DNA from: an uncultured SAR116 cluster alpha proteobacterium
GTDB taxonomy: Bacteria; Pseudomonadota; Alphaproteobacteria; Puniceispirillales; Marisalimonadaceae
NCBI GenBank assembly: GCA_902618025.1
Contig: CACMYY010000001.1
Location: 124,001-188,000 of the forward strand
Direction: 5' to 3'
Length of the DNA stretch: 64,000 nt
Each line of letters begins with the position of its first letter. The first letter of the stretch is position 1. Below, one piece after another: positions 5,099 to 19,804 of this stretch. The notes under the pieces are model-generated. The model was not told the origin of the DNA, searched no databases, and saw only the letters and a list, made by a program, of their open reading frames with translations. Both the position numbers and the translations under genes were made by a program.

Positions 5099-5173
5099 GG
5101 TCCCTTCGTCTAATGGTTAGGACTCAGCCCTTTCACGGCTGCAATAGGGGTTCGAATCCCCTAGGGATCACCA
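5099..5173 (+). tRNA. tRNA-Glu (anticodon TTC)
   Basis: The sequence folds as a complete tRNA with a 7-bp acceptor stem (GGTCCCT with AGGGATC, one G-U pair). The anticodon loop is CTTTCAC with anticodon TTC, the T-arm carries GGTTCGAATCC, the discriminator is A, and CCA is encoded at 5171-5173. The D-loop and anticodon arm match bacterial tRNA-Glu closely. It stands alone after recJ and marks the start of a variable region, as tRNA genes often do. Confidence 0.97.
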
Positions 5174-5820
5174 TTCAAGTAATTGATAATGTTAATTAAA
5201 TTGTAATGACAATTTTTTTTGGTGCCAACTTGTTGCAATTGTTGTTGACCTTCATATATATTTGAAACTAGTAGTTTTCAAATTCTATGTAATTTAACTA
5301 CCTTTATTAATTAATTTAGTGTTCAAAGTATAAAAAAGTTCATTTAATTATGTGTAATCTATTTGATCCCAAGCAAATGATTTTGTGTTTCTAGACAATT
5401 AAACGAGTCACTGGCATAATTTCAATACCTTAATAAGTTTGAGTTATTGTTGCATAAAAGATTTATTTCTAACAATTTTTGGCCTGTCCGATGAATAGTA
5501 AAAGCTTACAACAGGAATGAAGGTGAAATAGAAATTGAAGTTGCAAAAAATTATGTTAAACAAAAAAAACAAAAAATTAGTCTTTTATACTCCTTTGTTA
5601 ACCAGTTGCAAGGCAATGGTTTTTCAGGAAACTATAATAGTACTTTTAATGCACAAATTTTTTTATGGTCAAAACTATAGAAATATTGTTGAGTATTGGG
5701 ATGCTGAAGTGCAATGAATTAAGTCATACAATTATAGTTGGATGGTTAGAAATAGCCACTTGTTTAGCCTAAATTTAGCTAAAGAAGTTGGCACAGTGTG
5801 ATAAGTGATGGATTAATAAA
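5174..5820. other. Non-coding or decayed stretch after tRNA-Glu
   Basis: 647 bp with no convincing intact gene. The best open frame (5535-5717, 60 codons, non-ATG start) and overlapping frames on the same strand give short fragments with coding-like composition that stop and resume in different frames. Examples are a YRNIVEYWDAEVQ segment and, in another frame just downstream, LSHTIIVGWLE. This resembles the helix-turn-helix part of a DDE transposase broken by frameshifts, but the match is by eye and weak. No terminal inverted repeats were recognised. Confidence 0.4.
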
Positions 5821-8250
5821 TTGATAAATTTTTTCCGAAGAAATTGGAGGCAGAGCTTACACTCGTTCTTATTAACTTTACCAGCACTAATTGCGACAAT
5901 TATTTTGCAGAAAGACCTTCCATTTACCACAATGTTATTCAATGGTGGGTTTGCGTTATTTATTAATAATCTTTCTCAACTTATTCTATTTCCATATTAT
6001 GGTTTATTCATACTCGCGTTAGGGACCTTACTTTTACCCAAACCACCAACCGCTAGAGATAAATATTATTTTTCATCACTAAATATTGAATTAATTCGCT
6101 TTTTTAGTGGAGCAAGCCTTCTAGTTGTTCTTGGGTTCACACTTGGTTTTTTGAGCCTTCTTTTCCCGTGGGTAACAATATCTATATTTTGTAGCGTGCT
6201 CTATATCTATTTTTTACGATCTCCTAATATAGTACATTATTTTTTGAAGTTGTTAACAAAAAGCCATATATATGGAAACACTCCAGTAAGAGTTACCTCT
6301 ATTATCATTCGTGTCTTAATTTTGCTAACCATTTTGTATATTTTTTTCACTAAGGGCATCATGTTTGATTTATCTAGTTATGATGTATTACAAATGTATT
6401 TTCCTTATTTTGAAGAGATCCGTAACAACAATAGTATTTTGCTTGATCCAGATTATCCTGTTATTTATAGCTTTCTAATTAGTCGAGGAAGAGGTGTTCA
6501 CCATTTTTTTACTAGCTTCACTAGTCAGTATAATATCCAAATTGTTTCAGTAATGTACATGATATCCATTGGTTGGATTGTCCATCAGGTAATTAGTTTA
6601 TTTATACCTAAGGATATGTACACACCTACTTGGACTTCTACTAGGTACATTTTACCAAATTGTGCAATGCTTCTAGTTTTATGTTCTCCCATGTTGGCTA
6701 TAGAAACGGGGAGGTACCATTATGAAACAGGGGCTTTTCTTTTTTATATAATGTGGGCCAGCTTATTTTTTGTTTTTCTTGATAATAAGCAGATAAAATG
6801 GCTTTTCCGTATGTTGTTGCCAGTCGCAATTGCAGTTCCATTAATGCTACCCCAGTGTCAATTATTTATAGTTATTATTTTATTAATTGCATCTTCCCTT
6901 ATGTACTTTTTTAAAAAATTTACAGTAAAATATCATATTGTTTTAATAATAATTGGATTGATCTCAACTTTATTCTCTATATTATTAAACCAACTTTATA
7001 TAGGTATAGCTGAAGTTAATCCCTATGCGTTATTTTTACCTTTTGCCAACCCAGATAAGCTTCAGCAATGGTCCAGCACTGAATTGATATATTATGTGAA
7101 TAATGCACAGGGTATAACATTTGATTATCCGTTTTCGATTAACGGGTTAACGGCATTTATTGAAAAACTGGTATTATTCCTAATGAATATTATAAATATT
7201 GGGTTTATCGCCAACAAATCAATCCATTTATTAATTCTTGCGATTTTGTTTTGTTGGTTGGTTTTTCTTTTTTGTATTCGACATCAAATCTATAGGAAAA
7301 TTACCGATTACAATATTTTGGTATTTAGCAGTTTTTTCTTTTTATATTATGTTGTTATTGGTTTATTTGTGTCGCTTACCAATCATGGCAGCCTTGCACG
7401 AATGATGGCGTTTAGTGAGGTATATCCTTCGATTCTACTATTTGGGTGCATAATTATGGTGGGGGTAGTGTTTCGAAGGAGTTACTTGTATTTAAATGGC
7501 CTTGCTTTTCCAAAATCAAATGGTTTATTAGGCTTTACGAGATGTAATACAAAGGAGATATTCAGCATAATCATGGTTGATATAACTGGAAGGGTTGGTT
7601 TTCATTTTAAAACTTTTGTTCTTATTTTAATTAGTATATTTTCGATTATAGTAGCTATATCTAATTCTCATAAAATTAAATTAAATTCAATTGTACCTTC
7701 GTTAAAATACTTTACAGGTTTTATGCCATTAGACAAGATCATCCCAAATTATCACCACAAAATTTGTCTTGATCTTAATAAAATTGTCCCTGGGAACAAT
7801 CCGATACTACCATTAAATGCAGCTATTACTATTACCCCTATTTGTCATGGTTTACCATTATTGCCACGTAACAAAATAATAGAGACATTAGCTCCACCTT
7901 TTGCAAAAAAGTATGGAGATGTCTTACTAGGACCACCCCAAGATACATATCTAATATATAAAAAACTCGGAATTAACTATTTTTTCATTCAGAAAAACAA
8001 CCTACAATTTTGGGGCCCCGGTTATAGTGACAGCTTTAATCCTATGAATCTGATGAGTAACTTCGACATTTTTTATGAAGATAAAAGGTTTTATTTATTA
8101 ACCTGGAGAGGTAAAGGGATACATCCTGTTTCCTCAGAGACTGCGACGTACATTGAAGAACTGCGAGAAAAACAAAAAAAATATAAGGGTTTTAAAGAGT
8201 ATTGGAAAGGAGTGGGTCGATTAAAAGAGTGGGTAGAAATAAATAATTAA
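5821..8250 (+). CDS. Large polytopic membrane protein, GT-C-like glycosyltransferase candidate
   Basis: I do not recognise an established family. The 809-residue product has many hydrophobic helices through about residue 640, with a probable extracytoplasmic loop after the fourth or fifth helix carrying D188 in DVLQMYFPYF, then SRGRGVHHFF (221-230) and RYHYETG (298-304). An acidic residue in an early periplasmic loop of a polytopic protein is a GT-C-like layout. The C-terminal ~150 residues are soluble and contain ICHGLPLLPRNK (from about 674), LLGPPQ (about 702-707) and LLTWRG (about 759-764). Every one of these blocks has a counterpart, in the same order, in the convergent neighbour at 8314-11751, so the two are paralogues. 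The start is TTG with a poor ribosome-binding site, so the N-terminus is uncertain. A role in surface polysaccharide or lipid glycosylation is inferred only from the GT2 fusion in the paralogue. Confidence 0.8.
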   Translation: MINFFRRNWRQSLHSFLLTLPALIATIILQKDLPFTTMLFNGGFALFINNLSQLILFPYYGLFILALGTLLLPKPPTARDKYYFSSLNIELIRFFSGASLLVVLGFTLGFLSLLFPWVTISIFCSVLYIYFLRSPNIVHYFLKLLTKSHIYGNTPVRVTSIIIRVLILLTILYIFFTKGIMFDLSSYDVLQMYFPYFEEIRNNNSILLDPDYPVIYSFLISRGRGVHHFFTSFTSQYNIQIVSVMYMISIGWIVHQVISLFIPKDMYTPTWTSTRYILPNCAMLLVLCSPMLAIETGRYHYETGAFLFYIMWASLFFVFLDNKQIKWLFRMLLPVAIAVPLMLPQCQLFIVIILLIASSLMYFFKKFTVKYHIVLIIIGLISTLFSILLNQLYIGIAEVNPYALFLPFANPDKLQQWSSTELIYYVNNAQGITFDYPFSINGLTAFIEKLVLFLMNIINIGFIANKSIHLLILAILFCWLVFLFCIRHQIYRKITDYNILVFSSFFFLYYVVIGLFVSLTNHGSLARMMAFSEVYPSILLFGCIIMVGVVFRRSYLYLNGLAFPKSNGLLGFTRCNTKEIFSIIMVDITGRVGFHFKTFVLILISIFSIIVAISNSHKIKLNSIVPSLKYFTGFMPLDKIIPNYHHKICLDLNKIVPGNNPILPLNAAITITPICHGLPLLPRNKIIETLAPPFAKKYGDVLLGPPQDTYLIYKKLGINYFFIQKNNLQFWGPGYSDSFNPMNLMSNFDIFYEDKRFYLLTWRGKGIHPVSSETATYIEELREKQKKYKGFKEYWKGVGRLKEWVEINN

Positions 8251-8313
8251 CTTAAAAAATAAGATTTTTCAGGATATGTCGTCAAATCCTTGTGATTAAT
8301 CAATAGGCTTTTT

Positions 8314-11300
8314 TTAATTATAAAAGTATTCATGTGGGCTCATTTGCTTATAATTAAGAGATGACGGTGTTTGATCAATTGCATCTTGAATCTCATTAGC
8401 TTGATACTTTGATAATGGTGTTCCTACACTATTCCTCCAAGTTAGCATTAGGTACTCGTCTGTATCTGCAACTACATCAAATAGCTCTAAACTGTTCGAA
8501 AGTTCAAAGATAGAAGAAAATCCTATACCAAAGATTCTACGTGAAATTATTTTGTTTTTTTCCGAGAAATTACGAAAAAAAAGAAAATAATAAATATTTG
8601 ATTTCTTTAGTATTGCCTCAACAGATTTAGGTGGCCCAAACATAAGCTCTTTGAAATACAAACCTAATTCTGAATTATAATGATGAACAAATTTATTTTT
8701 TGGTAATCGAGTGTCTCCGTGACAAGGAACTATTGTTATTAGATTGTTTAAAGCAACAATTCGTTTATCAGTTTCTGTAAATGATGATAATTCGGTGCAA
8801 CGACTAAAAACCTTTGAATCATTAACAACCTCAACGTAAGATTTAATGCCAAAAATATATTCTAGCCTTTTTAAAATTAAAGAATGAGAACCACTTGCTA
8901 TCGAAAAGTATATTGTCAAAGACCAGAGCGCAAACAACAAAATAAAAAGTGATTGTATACGACTTATATTAAATCTTAGCCATTTTGTTGGTTTATATAG
9001 AGTTTTTTTGATGTAAAACTGAAAATACAAAAAAAATATGCAAAAACTGCCATTGAAAACAAAAGCATAATATGATTGTTTTATTGCAATACTAATATCG
9101 TGAATAGATCCACCTGAATATATATATAAAATATTTAAGAACCACAATGAGTTAATTAAAATAAATAATGGGGCGCAATTGATAAAAATATTATTTACAC
9201 TATGTCGTTTAAGATATTGATTGTTATTACTAATTGACTCTTTTTGATAAGAAAATTTAAAGTGCAACCAGGTAAGGGAAAGAGAAATAATAAAATACTC
9301 CTTAAAAGAAAAATAACTTAAAAGCCTAATAAGACTTGGAGCTTTATATAATTTTAGAACCAATTCTAAGCATAACAAAGAACATAACACTATAAGTAAA
9401 GGAGCAAAATAAGGCTTTAAATTGAGCAAACCTGTTTTAACAATACTTTTAAAGTTATCTAAGTAAAAGGTAAACATAGCAAAATATACGCCTATAATTG
9501 ACGCAGAGAATGTGTTATAAGAAACTAGTTTTACTGACTTAAACTCATAAAACAATGATACTATGAACAGTGCTATTGAAGTTAAAGTTAAAACAATTAT
9601 TAGGCCCCCAATCAGGTTGCCAAAGTGTCGAGATCTTATTGATTCAAGTAAGAAAAAAATGCCTCCGCATATTATAAAAACAGATAAATCGACTTGTGAA
9701 CTAACATCAATGACCCATTCATGTAAAGTTAAACCATTTAGAAATTTACTAAATAAATTAAGGTTTTGGAAGCGCTCTAAATAATCCCAAATCTCGATAC
9801 TTGTCCAAGACAAAAACTTAGATAAGTCTGCGAGCGGAATAAAAATTTTAAGAGGAAGAAGTGCAAATACGCCAACATGAAAATAATTCACGGAGATTGA
9901 TATAATAAATCCAGCTACAGAGCAAAGTCCTTGCAACATCAACGAGTAAAAAAAATCCCTTTTACCAACAAAAATGGCTGAAATAAATCCTGAGGACAAA
10001 AATAATGCAATAAAAAGTGAATATTGTGGAAATGTAATTGGTATAACAAATGATACTGCACAACCAACAATAAGTGCACCTTGTTTGGGAACTTTATTTT
10101 TTGGTAATGCTTGCGAAACTAGTGCAAGGAGCAATAAGACTAATAGAAAAAATGTTTGAGAATGATACTTTTCTATTTCATGCGAATGCATTGAATACAA
10201 TAACCATATTCCAACGCCTACAAAATAATACATTAATGCCTTATTTATTATGTCATTTTTAATAAAGATTTTAGAAAAATTTATTGTAATTAAAGCAAAT
10301 GAAACCAACCCACACAACACATTAACACCTCCGATTATTGTCCCAATATACTGTTCAAAAATGAGGGCAAAAAACATATGAAAGCCGTTTCCGCGCCCGA
10401 TTAAAAAATTTGAAGGGTCTAAGCTATTTTGGGTAATCCAAAACCCATTGTCTTCGATTACTCGAAGTAAAAATGGATAATAAATTTGAATAGCGTCATT
10501 TCCTTGAAATGATATAGGAATGGCGACGTTTATTAAGAATATACTCACAGATAACATGCAAAATATTCCCAAAATAAAATCAACACTGCGTCTTGGTTTA
10601 AACATATTTCCAAAAGATTCCAAAGCCGCTCGAATTAGGTTTGGCCTCCAAATTAGCGCTGACGTCAGTATAATAAATATGGTCGATAGCACGATGGTAG
10701 AGGTTAGAATAATTAGTCCACCGTACAACACACCAATTATTAATAGTGCACAATAACCTACGCCAAAATAATAAATTAGTGGAATGCTGTCTTTGTTTTC
10801 TCTTATATTGGTTTCTTGATTTTTACCAATTAGTAATATTCCAAGGCAATACGGAGTGACAAATATTCCTAATATTGTAAGGGCCTTTAAAACATGATAT
10901 AAAAATGTATGTATTCCGTTTGATAAATGTACAGTTTTAAATGTGTCAATCATTTCAAAACCAACATTACAAAAAATTATTGATGTGAATGTAACTCCTG
11001 TAACAATAAGGGCTTTGATTCTACCAATATTTTGAAGAGACCATAATAGATTTATAATAGATATAAAGACTCCGAACTGAAGGGCATTACTTCTTGCAAT
11101 TGCGAGAGACTTTAACTTAACCGAAAATTCAATTACGTCATTTTGTTGCAATCGTAATTTAGCTAATGCTTCTAATGCGTACATATATCCTTTTTGGTGA
11201 AGGTGCAAACTTTTGAGTGCATTCGCGTAATATATCTGGACGCTATGTGGATCCGTGACGCCTATTTGTAAAAAAAATCCAATAAATAGCTGAAATATCT

Positions 11301-11751
11301 GAGAAAAAAATGTTCTCGGACCTAGGGAATAATTGACCCTCCTTTTGCGGGTTGTTCCAATGTGTTTAGCTGCGCCCACAGAAGAAAAAGCTTCAACTAA
11401 ACTCTCTGCGTCATATGCTCCGTCCCCAGGTATGATTGTGATATATTCACAATTTGATTCTTTAAGCCCGGTATGAAAAACACTACCAACTCCTTGGTTG
11501 ACTGGGTGTATTACTAATCTAAGTTTATCAATTTTATCTGCTAGAGCTCTAACTATTTCAACTGTCGCATCGGTGCTTCCATCGTCTATAACGATAATTT
11601 CAAAGTCATCAAGTGAATCTTTCGCAACATGTGTTATATTTTTAATGGTTTCTGCAATATACTGTTCTTCATTAAAGGCTGGGATAACTATTGATAGTGA
11701 TCGGGGATAATTAAGCTTAGCAGATGTTTGGCTGATTAAAGTTGAAGTCAT
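8314..11751 (-). CDS. GT2 glycosyltransferase fused to a GT-C-like polytopic membrane protein
   Basis: The 1145-residue product begins with a family 2 glycosyltransferase domain: SLSIVIPAFNEEQ (18-30), EIIVIDDGSTD (51-61), a PGDGAYD segment and then membrane helices, like dolichyl-phosphate sugar synthases and undecaprenyl-phosphate sugar transferases. From roughly residue 330 it becomes a long polytopic region that aligns by eye with the whole convergent protein at 5821-8250. Shared blocks are D419 in DAIQIYYPF, LIGRGNGFHMFF, KYHSQT, FPQYSLFIA, FIPLADLSKFLSWTS and the C-terminal VPCHGDTRLPKNK, MFGPP and LMLTWRN. It may combine making a lipid-linked sugar donor with using it. Substrate and product are unknown. 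The start is an ATG. The gene converges on its paralogue with 63 bp between their ends. Confidence 0.85.
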   Translation of the reverse strand: MTSTLISQTSAKLNYPRSLSIVIPAFNEEQYIAETIKNITHVAKDSLDDFEIIVIDDGSTDATVEIVRALADKIDKLRLVIHPVNQGVGSVFHTGLKESNCEYITIIPGDGAYDAESLVEAFSSVGAAKHIGTTRKRRVNYSLGPRTFFSQIFQLFIGFFLQIGVTDPHSVQIYYANALKSLHLHQKGYMYALEALAKLRLQQNDVIEFSVKLKSLAIARSNALQFGVFISIINLLWSLQNIGRIKALIVTGVTFTSIIFCNVGFEMIDTFKTVHLSNGIHTFLYHVLKALTILGIFVTPYCLGILLIGKNQETNIRENKDSIPLIYYFGVGYCALLIIGVLYGGLIILTSTIVLSTIFIILTSALIWRPNLIRAALESFGNMFKPRRSVDFILGIFCMLSVSIFLINVAIPISFQGNDAIQIYYPFLLRVIEDNGFWITQNSLDPSNFLIGRGNGFHMFFALIFEQYIGTIIGGVNVLCGLVSFALITINFSKIFIKNDIINKALMYYFVGVGIWLLYSMHSHEIEKYHSQTFFLLVLLLLALVSQALPKNKVPKQGALIVGCAVSFVIPITFPQYSLFIALFLSSGFISAIFVGKRDFFYSLMLQGLCSVAGFIISISVNYFHVGVFALLPLKIFIPLADLSKFLSWTSIEIWDYLERFQNLNLFSKFLNGLTLHEWVIDVSSQVDLSVFIICGGIFFLLESIRSRHFGNLIGGLIIVLTLTSIALFIVSLFYEFKSVKLVSYNTFSASIIGVYFAMFTFYLDNFKSIVKTGLLNLKPYFAPLLIVLCSLLCLELVLKLYKAPSLIRLLSYFSFKEYFIISLSLTWLHFKFSYQKESISNNNQYLKRHSVNNIFINCAPLFILINSLWFLNILYIYSGGSIHDISIAIKQSYYAFVFNGSFCIFFLYFQFYIKKTLYKPTKWLRFNISRIQSLFILLFALWSLTIYFSIASGSHSLILKRLEYIFGIKSYVEVVNDSKVFSRCTELSSFTETDKRIVALNNLITIVPCHGDTRLPKNKFVHHYNSELGLYFKELMFGPPKSVEAILKKSNIYYFLFFRNFSEKNKIISRRIFGIGFSSIFELSNSLELFDVVADTDEYLMLTWRNSVGTPLSKYQANEIQDAIDQTPSSLNYKQMSPHEYFYN

Positions 11752-11819
11752 CCAAATAACCTTATAGATGAGTAATATTGAAAATTATTTGTGATTTTAT
11801 AAGTTTCCCTTAAAGTAAA

Positions 11820-12395
11820 TTAGTTATCACTTTCATCATTTAGATTTAATAAAGGTTTTAAGATAATTAGATAGGGTTTTGTTTCGATTACAAGCTTTTG
11901 CAAAGAATTTTTGATTTCCTCTCGCCTTTTTTCAGGTATTTTTTCCATACGTTTTGTTAGCGCGATAATTGGTTCTCCTAAACTTTCAATTGTAATAATG
12001 TTATGGAGTTTATTTTCAATTTTGTTGGAAAGATCATTAAAGCTTTTTTTTATATAAAAATTTCCCAAGTAACCCAAAATGATTAGGATAATTATCGATA
12101 ATATTAGGTACAAATATTTTTTGGAACCACTAGATGTAGTTGAATCTTTGGAATTATAATGTGAGGAGAAGATTTCTCTTTGTACCGTCTCTAATATTCC
12201 TATGTTATTTGCATCGGACAGAAACGCCTCAAGTTTAGACGTTAGATCAATATAAGCATCTTTTAATGTATTGCCCCTTCCAATGATGCTAATCTCAGGA
12301 ACTAATAAAACATATATATTTTCTTGTTTTCGTACGATAATCCTATAATTAGATATTCCATACGATTCCATTATAACTTCTAAATTATTATTCAT
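11820..12395 (-). CDS. Single-pass membrane protein with HicB-like N-terminal domain
   Basis: 191 residues, no named family recognised. Residues about 17-59 (YRIIVRKQENIYVLLVPEIS, then GRGNTLKDAYIDLTSKLEAFL) follow the HicB/UPF0150 pattern of a beta strand, a 'vPel' turn, a GxT step and an amphipathic helix. One strong transmembrane helix lies near residues 94-113, followed by a charged, helical tail of about 75 residues (KIENKL, KRMEKIPEKRREEIKNSLQKL). No HicA-like toxin ORF lies next to it, so a toxin-antitoxin role is not supported. It is transcribed in the same direction as, and 68 bp upstream of, the GT2 fusion gene and may belong to the same accessory unit. The start could also be Met9. 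Confidence 0.7.
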   Translation of the reverse strand: MNNNLEVIMESYGISNYRIIVRKQENIYVLLVPEISIIGRGNTLKDAYIDLTSKLEAFLSDANNIGILETVQREIFSSHYNSKDSTTSSGSKKYLYLILSIIILIILGYLGNFYIKKSFNDLSNKIENKLHNIITIESLGEPIIALTKRMEKIPEKRREEIKNSLQKLVIETKPYLIILKPLLNLNDESDN

Positions 12396-12944
12396 TTTAT
12401 AATGCTTTCTACAATAACTAACTAATTAGGATAAATACTTGAAGTAGTTCATATTTATAAATTTAAATTTTAATTAAAGTCTTCACATTTGCAACAAATT
12501 ATCTGACAGGAGGTATCTCTTTAATTATCAAACCATCTAGGGCAGTAGCATATAAGACAACCACATTTATGACTAATTTCAAATATTATTAAAACAATAA
12601 CACTTTATCTTTGGCTTTTTTAGGTACATGACATCTAATAGCCAAAAATTATAATTAAAATGATTTGAGTGTTTTTTAATATTTTTGAATAGATAAACAT
12701 TTGTGCTCGACTTAATACTCATACAAAGAGTTGTGACGCATTAGGTAACTACATACTCTGAATTTTGCAAACACTAAATTAAGTAGTTGCTAAATTAATA
12801 TCCTCATCCTAGGAATGTGTATATTGAGACAAAATTAATAAAACAAATCTTATCTATTGATACCAAATTATCGTAATTTTCAAGAATATATAAGACCAAA
12901 AATATAAATTTTTTTAACCTATAATAAATTATTAATTGTGTTGT
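12396..12944. other. Intergenic region without recognisable gene
   Basis: 549 bp of AT-rich sequence between the HicB-like membrane protein and folE. No open frame with coding character, tRNA, hairpin terminator or repeat could be supported. It marks the boundary between the accessory region and conserved genes. No copy of the tRNA-Glu 3' end, which would have suggested an integration site, was found here. Confidence 0.6.
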
Positions 12945-13550
12945 TTAATTTATTAATCTCATAAACTCATATCTTAAATCAGCATCATCTTTAAAGACAC
13001 CAAGCATGCGTTTAGTAACTGTGCTCGATTCAGGTTTATGAACTCCTCTCGTTGTCATACATTGATGAGATGCATCTATAATAACAGCAACACCCAAGGG
13101 ATCTAAAACTCTTTGAATCGTTTCAGCAATTTGTGAAGTCAATGTTTCTTGTATTTGAAGTCTTTTTGAAAAAACATCTACTAATCTTGCCAATTTACTT
13201 ATGCCTACAACTCTTTTGTTAGGCATATATGCCACATGAGCTATACCAACAATTGGAACTATGTGATGTTCACAGTGAGATTCTAATCTTATATTTTTTA
13301 TTAACACCATTTCATCATAACCTTCAACCTCTTCAAAGGTCTTTAGTAATATTTCATCAGGGTTAAGATTATAGCCTTCAAAAAATTCTTTATAGGCATC
13401 CACAACTCTTTTTGGAGTTTCAATTAAGCCTTCTCTGTTAGGATTATCCCCAGCCCAAGCTATTAGAGTTTTTACAGCATTCATTGCCTCTTCACGAGAT
13501 GGATCAGGATTGAATTTTATTACATTGTAGGTTTCAGATTTATTTTTCAT
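12945..13550 (-). CDS. folE: GTP cyclohydrolase I (type IA)
   Basis: Converts GTP to 7,8-dihydroneopterin triphosphate, the first step of folate (and queuosine precursor) synthesis. The 201-residue protein has the zinc ligands expected for the zinc-dependent type IA enzyme: Cys93 and His96 in ESHCEHH, and Cys164 in SHQCMTTRGV. The substrate-binding VGISKLARLVDVFSKRLQ segment is also present. It is divergent from a COG0523 GTPase with 79 bp between the starts, and a TGTTAT-N3-ATAACA palindrome lies in that gap. This context suggests zinc-responsive control of a zinc-dependent enzyme together with its presumed metallochaperone. Confidence 0.96.
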   Translation of the reverse strand: MKNKSETYNVIKFNPDPSREEAMNAVKTLIAWAGDNPNREGLIETPKRVVDAYKEFFEGYNLNPDEILLKTFEEVEGYDEMVLIKNIRLESHCEHHIVPIVGIAHVAYMPNKRVVGISKLARLVDVFSKRLQIQETLTSQIAETIQRVLDPLGVAVIIDASHQCMTTRGVHKPESSTVTKRMLGVFKDDADLRYEFMRLIN

Positions 13551-15889: not shown

Positions 15890-16624
15890 TTATTTAAAGT
15901 CAAATGGTGGTAATTCTTTGATACTTTTTTTAAGAGACTCACCCCAACTTTTTGATATATATTCAAAATATTGATTATTCTTTTCAATTCTAATTTGATT
16001 AATGGCTTTAAATTCATTTTGTTTTAACGTACATACGTCAATTGGCATGCCTACAGAGACGTTGGCCTTCATAGTACTATCAAATGATACAAGAAGTAAT
16101 TTTATTGCATCACCAAAGCTAGACTCTTTTTCTAAAGCTCTAACAATTATAGGTTTGCCGTATTTTGTTTCTCCAATTTGAAAAAATAACTGATCCTCGG
16201 AAGCTTCTATAAAGTTTCCTTCAGGATAAATTAAAAAAAGTCTATGTTTCTGATCAATTATTTGACCGCCTAATATCAAGGTTGAAGAATAGGGGTTTTC
16301 ACCTGCTTGACCATCAGAAGCATATTCATTTGAAATATTTCTTAAAATCTTACCAACAATTCTGGCAACTTGAAACATTGATTTAGTTTTTAAAATACTA
16401 TCTGTATCATCATTAGGATTTTCAATAGCTTCATTTATAAGATTTATACAGGCCTGTGATGTGGCTAAATTACCAGAAGTTAATAAAACAATATTTCTTT
16501 CATTTTTTTTAGTCCAATTAAACATTTTTTTGTTGGTGTTAATGTTGTCAATGCCTGCATTCGTTAGTGTATCAGACATAAAAACCAAGCCTTTATTTAA
16601 TTTTAATCCAACACAATAAGTCAT
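15890..16624 (-). CDS. Anbu-type proteasome-related peptidase
   Basis: Anbu is a bacterial relative of proteasome beta subunits and HslV that assembles into open helical or ring-like oligomers. The 244-residue product starts MTYCVGL, with Thr2 as the expected N-terminal nucleophile once Met is removed. It continues with MSDTLTNAGIDNI (Asp18) and a lysine pair at 32-33, matching the Thr-Asp-Lys catalytic set. SSTLILGGQI and LFLIYPEGNFI are typical of the family. Where relatives I know carry an Arg (SDSRTNAG), this one has Leu20. It is the last gene of a four-gene operon with transglutaminase, alpha-E and ATP-grasp proteins, the known Anbu neighbourhood. Substrate is unknown. Confidence 0.92.
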   Translation of the reverse strand: MTYCVGLKLNKGLVFMSDTLTNAGIDNINTNKKMFNWTKKNERNIVLLTSGNLATSQACINLINEAIENPNDDTDSILKTKSMFQVARIVGKILRNISNEYASDGQAGENPYSSTLILGGQIIDQKHRLFLIYPEGNFIEASEDQLFFQIGETKYGKPIIVRALEKESSFGDAIKLLLVSFDSTMKANVSVGMPIDVCTLKQNEFKAINQIRIEKNNQYFEYISKSWGESLKKSIKELPPFDFK

Positions 16625-16636
16625 TGTACTTCCACA

Positions 16637-17446
16637 CTATTGGTTAAGTATATCAATACTTAACTCTAAATTTTGATTTTCAATAAAATTTCCATTTATT
16701 ATACCTTTTACAGGGACTACATCATTATAATCAAAACCTTTTGATATTACTACATATCTTTCATCGGGTGAAATACCATTAGATATATCAAAGCCTATCC
16801 ATCCAAGATCTTTTATAAAAACTTCTGCCCAAGCATGCATTGAAAGATTTATGTTATTATCATTTGGTATAAATAAACCACAAACATACCTGCAAGGAAG
16901 ATTATACATACGAACAAGGGACAAAAAAATATGTGTGTGGTCTTGACAAACACCAGCACCTTTTTCGAATGCATCTTCAGCAGTTGTTTTATAATTTGTA
17001 GTTCCTTTTTTATATTTAACTCTAGATTTAATATTTAAAGATAAATTATGAAGGCTTCCAATTATATCTTCAAAATTGAAACTAATTTCTTTATAAAAAT
17101 TTGATATTAACTTACCAGGGTTAGTCAATTTTGTTTTATCAACGTAACACCAAATTGGTAAATCCTTATCTGTACTTTTAACTATGCCAAAGTTAGGCTG
17201 TGTTTCCACTCTACCTAGGACGTTATACTCTATCTTTTTAGCATTATTTTTTATACTAATTAAATCTATATGATTGCCAAATTGATCCTTAGAAGTAAGT
17301 TCTTTATTTCCACCATCTACTTTAATTTTCCAATTCAATATAGTTTGATTTTCATTATTTTGAGGTGTAAGTAATAGTTTATTGTATCCAAAATTAATTA
17401 CCCCATCAATTTCATATATAATTTTTTGTTTTATTTTTAATATCAT
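16637..17446 (-). CDS. Transglutaminase-like cysteine protease-fold protein of the Anbu cluster
   Basis: 269 residues. An N-terminal beta-rich region (about 1-110) is followed by a transglutaminase-like core. Its catalytic triad is visible: Cys in EKGAGVCQDHTHIFL (about residue 167), His in SMHAWAEVF (about 204) and Asp in GWIGFDISNG (about 219). In Anbu clusters this protein is thought to act as a peptidase or amidase opposite the ligase activity of the ATP-grasp partner. No signal peptide is visible, so it should act in the cytoplasm. The gene is 4 bp downstream of the alpha-E gene and 12 bp upstream of the Anbu peptidase, indicating one transcript. Confidence 0.92.
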   Translation of the reverse strand: MILKIKQKIIYEIDGVINFGYNKLLLTPQNNENQTILNWKIKVDGGNKELTSKDQFGNHIDLISIKNNAKKIEYNVLGRVETQPNFGIVKSTDKDLPIWCYVDKTKLTNPGKLISNFYKEISFNFEDIIGSLHNLSLNIKSRVKYKKGTTNYKTTAEDAFEKGAGVCQDHTHIFLSLVRMYNLPCRYVCGLFIPNDNNINLSMHAWAEVFIKDLGWIGFDISNGISPDERYVVISKGFDYNDVVPVKGIINGNFIENQNLELSIDILNQ

Positions 17447-17450
17447 TGCC

Positions 17451-18377
17451 TTAATGGAAATTAAATTCCACCTCTATATTTGTAGCCAAATCCATATTTA
17501 ATTTGATTAAACCATTTAAAAATAAATAGTTATTCAAACTTAAATTTTTTAGTTTAATCTTTTTTTGAATACCTAAGGCATTAATATAACTCCTACTATT
17601 CTTTAATTTTTTTTTATTAATGAATTTTAAATTTTTTAAAGTTTCATTAATACAAAAAATAAGTGATTTAGGCATGTCTTCGTCTGAAATCAAAAAATAA
17701 GAAACTTTTTTAGGATTTATTTCATTCTGATATTTCCACATAAATGATCTATAAGAAGACATGCTTCTTAAAATCATTTCTAATTGAAAATTATCATAAC
17801 CTTCTAAACGATATTTTTTCTCATCTAAAAATAAATATTGTCTTGTATTTAATATTCTTGCTGTATTATCAAATCTTTCTATGTAAGTACCTAAATAGCA
17901 AAAATTAAGAATTTCATTTTTTAACATTGTCTTTTCAAGAAAGCCAAAAATTAGAGCAATCTTCTCTCTTGTTGTTTGTAATATTAATTGAATTTTATTT
18001 TCAGTAATGTGTTTATTTAATTCTTTATTTAAATACAACCAACATGTGTTTATTGACTCCCATACATCCGTAGTTATCGAAACTCTTGATTTTCTTGCAT
18101 TTTCTCTAGCTTTTGAAATAAGACTTAAAATATTATTAACATTTCTAGAATCTTTAAGCATAAAATTTATTATCTTCAGACTATCCAAAGAATTGTTTTT
18201 TCTTAAAAAATATTGCCTTATAGAATTCGTTCTTAAAATTGCATCCCATTCATTTTGCAAATTAGAAGATGATAAAAGATATAATTGGAGTCCACTTTCA
18301 ATTACGCATAATGTATTTTCTGCTCGTTCTATATATCTAAACATCCAAAATAATGAGTCAGCTGTACTACCTAGCAT
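17451..18377 (-). CDS. Alpha-E domain protein (COG2307/DUF403)
   Basis: 308 residues, almost entirely helical. It opens with the family signature LGSTADSLFWMFRYIERAEN and includes YLGTYIERFDNTARIL and SMSSYRSFMW blocks. Alpha-E proteins always accompany circularly permuted ATP-grasp proteins and are thought to form part of a peptide-bond-forming module; their biochemical activity is not established. Its start codon overlaps the stop of the upstream ATP-grasp gene by one base, indicating translational coupling. Confidence 0.92.
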   Translation of the reverse strand: MLGSTADSLFWMFRYIERAENTLCVIESGLQLYLLSSSNLQNEWDAILRTNSIRQYFLRKNNSLDSLKIINFMLKDSRNVNNILSLISKARENARKSRVSITTDVWESINTCWLYLNKELNKHITENKIQLILQTTREKIALIFGFLEKTMLKNEILNFCYLGTYIERFDNTARILNTRQYLFLDEKKYRLEGYDNFQLEMILRSMSSYRSFMWKYQNEINPKKVSYFLISDEDMPKSLIFCINETLKNLKFINKKKLKNSRSYINALGIQKKIKLKNLSLNNYLFLNGLIKLNMDLATNIEVEFNFH

Positions 18378-19804
18378 TATGTACCCAATATCCAGGTATC
18401 CTTAGTCCCACCACCTTGACTTGAATTAACAATTAAAGAGTTCTTCTTAAGAGCAACTCTTGTAAGTCCACCGCATATGACTTTAACTTTATCTTTAGCT
18501 AATAGAGCAAAAGATCTTAAGTCTACATGTCTTGGGGTTAATCCCTTTTTAGAATAGGTAGGACAAGTAGATAGAGCTAATGTGGGCTGTGCAATATAAT
18601 TATAAGGATTTCTTATTAATTTTTTTTTAAATTGTGATATTTCGTTTTTGCTAGCTAATGGACCTATAAGCATACCATATCCACCTGAACCGTGAACTTC
18701 TTTAATGACTAACTTATTGAGGTTATCCAACACAAATTTTAAATCTTCTTTTAAACGGCACTTGAAAGTTTTTACGTTTTTCAGTATTGGTTTTTCGCCT
18801 AAATAAAATTTTATTATATCAGGAATGTAAGAATAAATGGCTTTATCGTCAGAGATACCTGTACCTGGTGCATTTGCTATGGTTACATTTTTGTTTCTAT
18901 AAACTTCCATTAATCCTGGCACACCTAAGAAGCTTTCTTCTTTGAATGATAATGGATCCAAAAAAACATCATCTATTCTTCTGTAAATAACGTCAACCTT
19001 TTTCCATCCTTCAATGGTTTTCATATTTAAAAACTCATTGATAACGCGTAGATCTTTACCTTCTACTAATTCAACACCAAGCTTGTCAGCTAAAAAAGCA
19101 TGTTCAAAAAAAGCAGAATTATAAATGCCAGGAGTAAGTAAAACAATATTTGGATTTTTCTTAAATTTCGTAGGAGCAACGACTTTTAATATATCGGATA
19201 AGTTTTTAGTATAATTTCTATTATCTTCAACGTTATATTTTGAAATTAGTTCAGGGAATAATTTTATCATTGTATCCCTGTTTTCAATCATATAAGAAGC
19301 ACCTGAAGGAACTCTAACATTATCTTCTAAAACATAAAAATCACTTGTACCCGTTTTAATTAAATCAATACCAGAAATATGGTTATAAGTTTTTTCTTGG
19401 GGTGTAAATCCAAGCATTTGTTTCAAAAATGCAGGGTTATTTTGAACCAAATCTATAGGCAATACACCATGTTTAATGATCTCTTGTTCATTATAAATAT
19501 CATTAAGAAAAAAGTTTATAGCTAATACTCTTTGAGTAATTCCTTTAACAATTTTATTCCATTCTTTATGATCTAAAATTCTGGGAATTATATCAAATGG
19601 TATTAAATTCTCTTTGTTATTTGAATCTGAATACAACTTAAAAGTTACTCCAGTTTTTTCAAAGAAATTTAAAGCATCAATTTGTTTTTTTGATAATTCT
19701 GATTTTTGTTGTTTTTGAAACCAATTATAGAACTTTTTGTAGTTAACTCTGGTAGAACTATTACTAATAAATGCTTCATCATATTTATTTATATTATATG
19801 CCAT
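18377..19804 (-). CDS. Circularly permuted ATP-grasp protein (COG2308)
   Basis: 475 residues, matching the COG2308 family found with alpha-E proteins. Visible blocks are FDIIPRILDHKEW, VLEDNVRVPSGASYMIENR, LLTPGIYNSAFFEHAFLA, VDVIYRRIDDVFLDP, NAPGTGISDDKAIYSYIPD and VIKEVHGSGGYGMLIGP. These correspond to the ATP- and metal-binding lobes in permuted order. The family is predicted to form amide bonds between amino acids or peptides using ATP. It is the first gene of the Anbu operon. The C-terminus SSQGGGTKDTWIL is the usual family ending. Confidence 0.93.
   Translation of the reverse strand: MAYNINKYDEAFISNSSTRVNYKKFYNWFQKQQKSELSKKQIDALNFFEKTGVTFKLYSDSNNKENLIPFDIIPRILDHKEWNKIVKGITQRVLAINFFLNDIYNEQEIIKHGVLPIDLVQNNPAFLKQMLGFTPQEKTYNHISGIDLIKTGTSDFYVLEDNVRVPSGASYMIENRDTMIKLFPELISKYNVEDNRNYTKNLSDILKVVAPTKFKKNPNIVLLTPGIYNSAFFEHAFLADKLGVELVEGKDLRVINEFLNMKTIEGWKKVDVIYRRIDDVFLDPLSFKEESFLGVPGLMEVYRNKNVTIANAPGTGISDDKAIYSYIPDIIKFYLGEKPILKNVKTFKCRLKEDLKFVLDNLNKLVIKEVHGSGGYGMLIGPLASKNEISQFKKKLIRNPYNYIAQPTLALSTCPTYSKKGLTPRHVDLRSFALLAKDKVKVICGGLTRVALKKNSLIVNSSQGGGTKDTWILGT

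Follow-up and report, generated by a model that had tools for sequence, protein, structure and literature searches.

A GT2 glycosyltransferase fused to one of two paralogous membrane proteins: a candidate polyprenyl-phosphate-dependent glycosylation system in an alphaproteobacterial insertion

The gene pair and its insertion site

The window analyzed here is a 64,000-nucleotide stretch from the genome of an uncultured SAR116 cluster alphaproteobacterium. It contains two open reading frames that converge with 63 bp between them and encode polytopic membrane proteins of 809 and 1145 amino acids, the larger of which carries a GT2 glycosyltransferase domain at its N-terminus (table 1). Two stretches of the proteins align in a BLASTP comparison, one around residue D188 of the smaller protein (residues 61-444 against 295-675 of the larger protein, 25% identity, E = 1e-15) and one at the C-terminus (614-793 against 953-1136, 27% identity, E = 6e-18). 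The scores of 68-76 bits are far above the 28 bits reached by the best of 200 window-shuffled versions of the partner sequence. The original prediction of two convergent, full-length paralogous proteins is therefore confirmed, and every sequence block that it listed was recovered in both of them. Besides the GT2 domain of the larger protein, no credible match to another Pfam family was found in either sequence.

Table 1. Features of the insertion and of the proteins encoded in it (positions within the window)
Feature	Position	Strand	Basis
tRNA-Glu (TTC), left boundary of the insertion	5099..5173	+	ARAGORN; identity endpoint in relatives
Insertion of ~7.8 kb between tRNA-Glu and folE (two paralogues and 191-aa gene)	5174..12944	.	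Comparison with relatives
B-type polytopic membrane protein, 809 aa, without GT2 fusion	5821..8250	+	ORF, TTG start; groups with B paralogues of genus g273
D188 codon, putative catalytic Asp of the first large predicted periplasmic loop, 809-aa protein	6382..6384	+	Conservation; side and role inferred
C-terminal soluble domain of 809-aa protein (residues 615-809), with C649/C675 and LTWR	7663..8250	+	Follows last predicted TM helix
A-type polytopic membrane protein, 1145 aa, N-terminal GT2 fused	8314..11751	-	ORF, ATG start; 42% identity to copy on contig C31
C-terminal soluble domain of 1145-aa protein (residues 952-1145), with C985/C1010 and LTWR	8314..8898	-	BLASTP block 953-1136 and alignment
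D419 codon, equivalent of D188 in 1145-aa protein	10495..10497	-	Family alignments
GT2 domain (residues 1-240), predicted donor synthase part of 1145-aa protein	11032..11751	-	PF00535; profile match to 5mlz; unfused homologues at other loci
191-aa protein with one predicted TM helix, inside the insertion	11820..12395	-	ORF; absent at site in relatives

The insertion was delimited by comparison with 12 relatives, in all of which sequence identity reaches the 3' end of the tRNA-Glu gene and stops there or within ~55 bp. Three of them (G1038, G014, and G020) have recJ, tRNA-Glu, and folE next to each other and lack a match to positions 5203-12928 of the window; the other nine carry a different, mutually conserved gene set after the tRNA. 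This tRNA site is variable, and the 7.8-kb block is an accessory insertion in it. None of the three open reading frames of the block is an apparent integrase gene, and its right boundary showed no att-like direct repeat of the tRNA 3' end. A binning error is unlikely because the contig is 288 kb long; an assembly chimera is conceivable. The 191-aa protein had no significant family match; its first 60 residues appear HicB-like by eye.

The position behind recJ and tRNA-Glu is a synteny breakpoint in the genus, with folE next in 3 out of 12 loci and another gene set in 9 out of 12 (L122-L133). The genome contains two GTP cyclohydrolase I genes, one in the window (12945-13550, minus strand) and one elsewhere (G000:C11:6417-6962), which are 54% identical, and many relatives have both. 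Further along the window (15890-19804, minus strand) lie genes for a proteasome-like peptidase, a transglutaminase-like protease, an Alpha-E protein, and a circularly permuted ATP-grasp protein, which we take to be a recurrent, poorly understood peptide-related gene set.

Domain architecture and conserved residues

Residues 20-140 of the 1145-aa protein match PF00535 (E = 1.8e-24). A GT2 class profile was built from seven GT2s and compared with solved structures. Many GT2 structures matched over the first half, with chondroitin synthase giving the top scores, and the dolichol-phosphate-mannose (DPM) synthase 5mlz was the sole solved structure matched over the whole domain. Because of this full-length match, together with those of ArnC and the GtrB-like sll0501 over most of the domain, the GT2 was assigned to the polyprenyl-phosphate sugar transferase class, as originally predicted. 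Judged from its sequence, the fused domain belongs to the polyprenyl/dolichyl-phosphate-type synthases, with the corresponding activity predicted. A DDGS-type motif is retained in most of the GT2s compared and the usual DxD is reduced to xGD (PGDG, AGDD, PGDH, CGDG, or CGDD). The GT2 of the window thereby differs from DPM synthase, ArnC, and GtrB, with which it otherwise aligns, in the absence of the first Asp of the DxD; it also differs in that the transferase-like portion of the protein provides its anchor helices.

The membrane part contains 13-18 hydrophobic segments according to a simple hydropathy scan, which places D188 within a loop of ~60 residues after an N-terminal block of ~4-5 TM helices. 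A soluble tail of ~195 residues follows the last predicted TM helix. Neither the membrane part nor the C-terminal domain, which had originally been noted as unfamiliar, had a sequence match in Pfam, NCBIfam, or the PDB chains. AlphaFold models of both window proteins, based on a two-sequence alignment, had a mean pLDDT of 35, which is too low to compare folds. In GT-C enzymes generally, a TM helix is followed by a large loop that carries an Asp, and further helices and a soluble C-terminal domain come after it. The layout of the window family is compatible with that of the ArnT/PMT_2 transferases of this class in the loop Asp behind a predicted TM helix, the subsequent RGxG and helices, and the soluble C-terminus, but the family differs from them in having ~4-5 TM helices ahead of the loop and no significant profile match. 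By hhalign, it gave no significant match to a set of 30 PMT_2 proteins, to the ArnT-like protein of its own genome, or to other membrane controls. The PMT_2 score of 23.1 was within the range of the shuffled controls (up to 29.6); since a known PMT_2 relative, the ArnT-like protein, reached only 25.0 against PMT_2, the test is weak and neither backs nor rules out a GT-C fold. We infer that the membrane parts of both proteins are GT-C-like in fold and that D188 is on the periplasmic side.

Conservation was counted over 24 family sequences (residue numbers according to the 809-aa protein). Fifteen residues are invariant in all 24: D188, Y193, G223, G225, H300, G395, P401, S524, R527, C675, F721, S736, F739, L760, and W762. 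These include the glycines of the RGxG motif (G223 and G225), the L760 and W762 of the LxW motif, and, within the D188/D419 loop, the Asp itself and Y193. Q191, P195, and C649 are conserved in 22 out of 24 sequences; a disulfide might link C649 to C675 if their domain is periplasmic. The sequence blocks that the window proteins have in common are thus family-wide only in part. The CHG and GPP motifs, originally described as invariant, both vary among the 24 relatives, and LP(R/K)NK is not a family feature either: where the window pair has CHG, LP(R/K)NK, and GPP, a third copy in the same genome has CFA, FP-GK, and NDL, and the relative in G418 has CYF, LTRGK, and GDA.

Relatives, genomic context, and origin of the pair

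The draft genome (1.55 Mb, 75% complete) encodes this third relative on contig C31. The protein of 1161 aa is likewise fused to a GT2 and is 42% identical to the 1145-aa protein. It lies in an island of the surface-polysaccharide type, together with genes for a UPF0104 (LPG_synthase_TM) protein, an ABC exporter, a cupin, two methyltransferases of the sugar C-methyltransferase type, and one other methyltransferase. The UPF0104 gene on C31 is the only one found in the draft genome and the insertion in the window contains none, so that the description of the window pair as a self-contained system is not supported.

The 809-aa protein had no match in 60 relatives (36 of the same genus, mostly incomplete genomes), a search in which the same query recovered both A-type copies of its own genome. 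With a profile of the membrane part, the family was found in 2 out of 385 genomes of a class sample, in 4 out of 398 genomes of a phylum sample, and in 18 out of 147 genomes of g273, a large-genome alphaproteobacterial genus in which the relatives are unfused. More distant homologues were found by this profile in G1024 and G1013, which are of the same family as g273. The viral contigs and plasmids searched contained no relative, and a scan of genome contigs returned GT2 matches only.

Twelve g273 loci were examined (L037 and L080-L090). All of them share the order transketolase halves, two aminotransferases, PhyH-like dioxygenase, methyltransferase, cupin, UPF0104, and A-type protein, followed by the B-type protein (6 out of 12), a C-methyltransferase, a Gfo/Idh oxidoreductase, another membrane protein, and, wherever the stretch extends far enough, a separate GT2 (33% identity to the fused GT2). 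The pair co-occurs in half of these loci: A and B are both present in six, A is without B in the other six, and B is alone in none. The cupin, UPF0104, and C-methyltransferase of g273 are homologous to their C31 counterparts. UPF0104 directly adjoins the A-type gene on C31 as well as in each of the 12 g273 loci. G1024 and G1013 also have both UPF0104 and a GT2 close to the homologues, with all of these genes on a single contig in G1024 and distributed over two in G1013; the GT2s near the unfused homologues in g273, G1024, and G1013 are of the same subfamily as the fused GT2. Three related lineages thus place the homologues in a context of surface-glycan synthesis, in line with the link to a surface glycan that was initially proposed. 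Bradyrhizose was considered as the product of the g273 operon, an idea that found no support and was dropped. The operon also encodes another conserved polytopic protein of 540-625 aa without a Pfam match (L037:15027-16730, minus strand, and equivalents).

In the phylogenetic analysis, the 809-aa protein groups with the B-type proteins of g273 both with and without the most distant rows (support 100/98 and 100/99, respectively), and a clade of the 809-aa protein and the two fused proteins was rejected (AU test, p = 0.00067). The grouping of the fused proteins with the A-type has weaker support (81/78 and 76/81). B-specific blocks, among them ETGR(Y/F)HYETGA, NNAQGI, HGSLxRMxA, and DVLLGP, agree between the 809-aa protein and the B-type proteins. 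A recent local duplication is therefore rejected by the tree as the origin of the window pair. Based on the grouping and the B-specific blocks, the window repeats an old pairing of A and B in which the A member is the one that carries the fused GT2. The GT2 and A-type genes are split in g273 and fused here, and are thereby linked through gene fusion.

A proposed glycosylation system and its alternatives

In known systems, a GT2 makes a polyprenyl-phosphate sugar that is flipped by a flippase and used by a GT-C transferase (PMC11127046, PMC8035078). The reading that we favor, with a probability of roughly 0.6, is that the window pair represents the donor-making and sugar-transferring parts of a periplasmic system of this three-component type, which depends on polyprenyl phosphate and glycosylates a surface polysaccharide, and that both membrane proteins probably add sugars to the surface glycan. 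On the cytoplasmic side, the GT2 domain of the 1145-aa protein would use a nucleotide donor to attach a sugar to polyprenyl phosphate, and the UPF0104 protein encoded elsewhere in the genome, presumably paired with it, would flip the lipid-linked sugar. The membrane parts of the A-type (1145 aa) and B-type (809 aa) proteins would then transfer the sugar in the periplasm, where D188/D419 may act as a base or a metal ligand and the soluble C-terminal domain may bind part of a glycan acceptor. The identities of sugar and acceptor are likewise conjectural.

In the third-copy island and the related loci, a GT2 of the polyprenyl-phosphate type is linked in a glycan locus to a putative flippase and to a polytopic protein predicted to face the periplasm, which resembles GtrA/GtrB/Gtr*, GtlA/GtcA/GtlB, CsbB/GtcA/YfhO, and the Citrobacter pentofuranose system. 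In contrast to those systems, the GT2 is fused to the polytopic protein, UPF0104 instead of GtrA is found alongside in the related loci, there are two polytopic paralogues per GT2, and the membrane part has no match to a GT-C family. A flippase role in glycosylation pathways has been predicted for UPF0104 proteins, which archaea encode beside PMT/STT3-like and AglD-like genes (PMC5898192). Archaeal AglD, a GT2-UPF0104 fusion, also joins a GT2 to a membrane partner of such a pathway (PMC5898192), but its partner is the flippase whereas the partner here is a transferase-like protein. The open-access literature searched contained no report of a comparable GT2-GT-C fusion, which is a weak negative. 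Overall, the system appears to be an atypical version of a known type and not a new kind of system.

The large polytopic proteins described here form an unclassified glycan-related family that is linked by fusion to a polyprenyl-phosphate GT2 and repeatedly encoded near UPF0104, and this family is a good test case for a role of UPF0104 proteins in flipping polyprenyl-phosphate sugars. The recurrence of A and B together with only one donor-maker also raises the question of how one donor serves two transferases. A bolder and distinctly more tentative reading is that the proteins form a new GT-C-like family, or a new fold class, that combines donor synthesis and periplasmic transfer in one polypeptide, with the old A/B pair sharing one lipid-linked donor and one synthase feeding two transfer sites.

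The retention of D188, H300, R527, C675, and LTW in the B-type sequences makes it unlikely that the A-type protein alone is enzymatic and that B joins it in a heteromer to regulate it or to bind the acceptor, an arrangement that would agree with the presence of B only next to A in the loci examined and with the second acceptor-binding protein proposed for such systems (PMC8035078). Still less likely, the membrane parts could be Wzy/WaaL-like (GT-C_B) O-antigen polymerases or ligases, which join whole undecaprenyl-pyrophosphate-linked units, with the GT2 as an ordinary cytoplasmic transferase that helps to build the units. The polytopic architecture with periplasmic loops, the glycan operons, the conserved R527 and H300, and the ABC exporter in the C31 island would suit such enzymes; however, the GT2 is of the DPM/ArnC/GtrB type, several lineages have UPF0104 next to A or in its vicinity, the presence of two homologous copies with a single GT2 better suits the transfer of single sugars, and no such family was matched in Pfam or NCBIfam. 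A non-glycan membrane system with a coincidental glycan context, for which the window neighbors recJ, folE, and cobW might speak, is very improbable and already largely refuted, as these neighbors mark an insertion site and not an operon, the related genes lie in glycan operons, and the GT2 fusion is present in two copies.

The same genome also encodes, adjacent to each other, a separate ArnC-like GT2 and the ArnT-like PMT_2 transferase (L016:6606-9109, minus strand, G000:C5).
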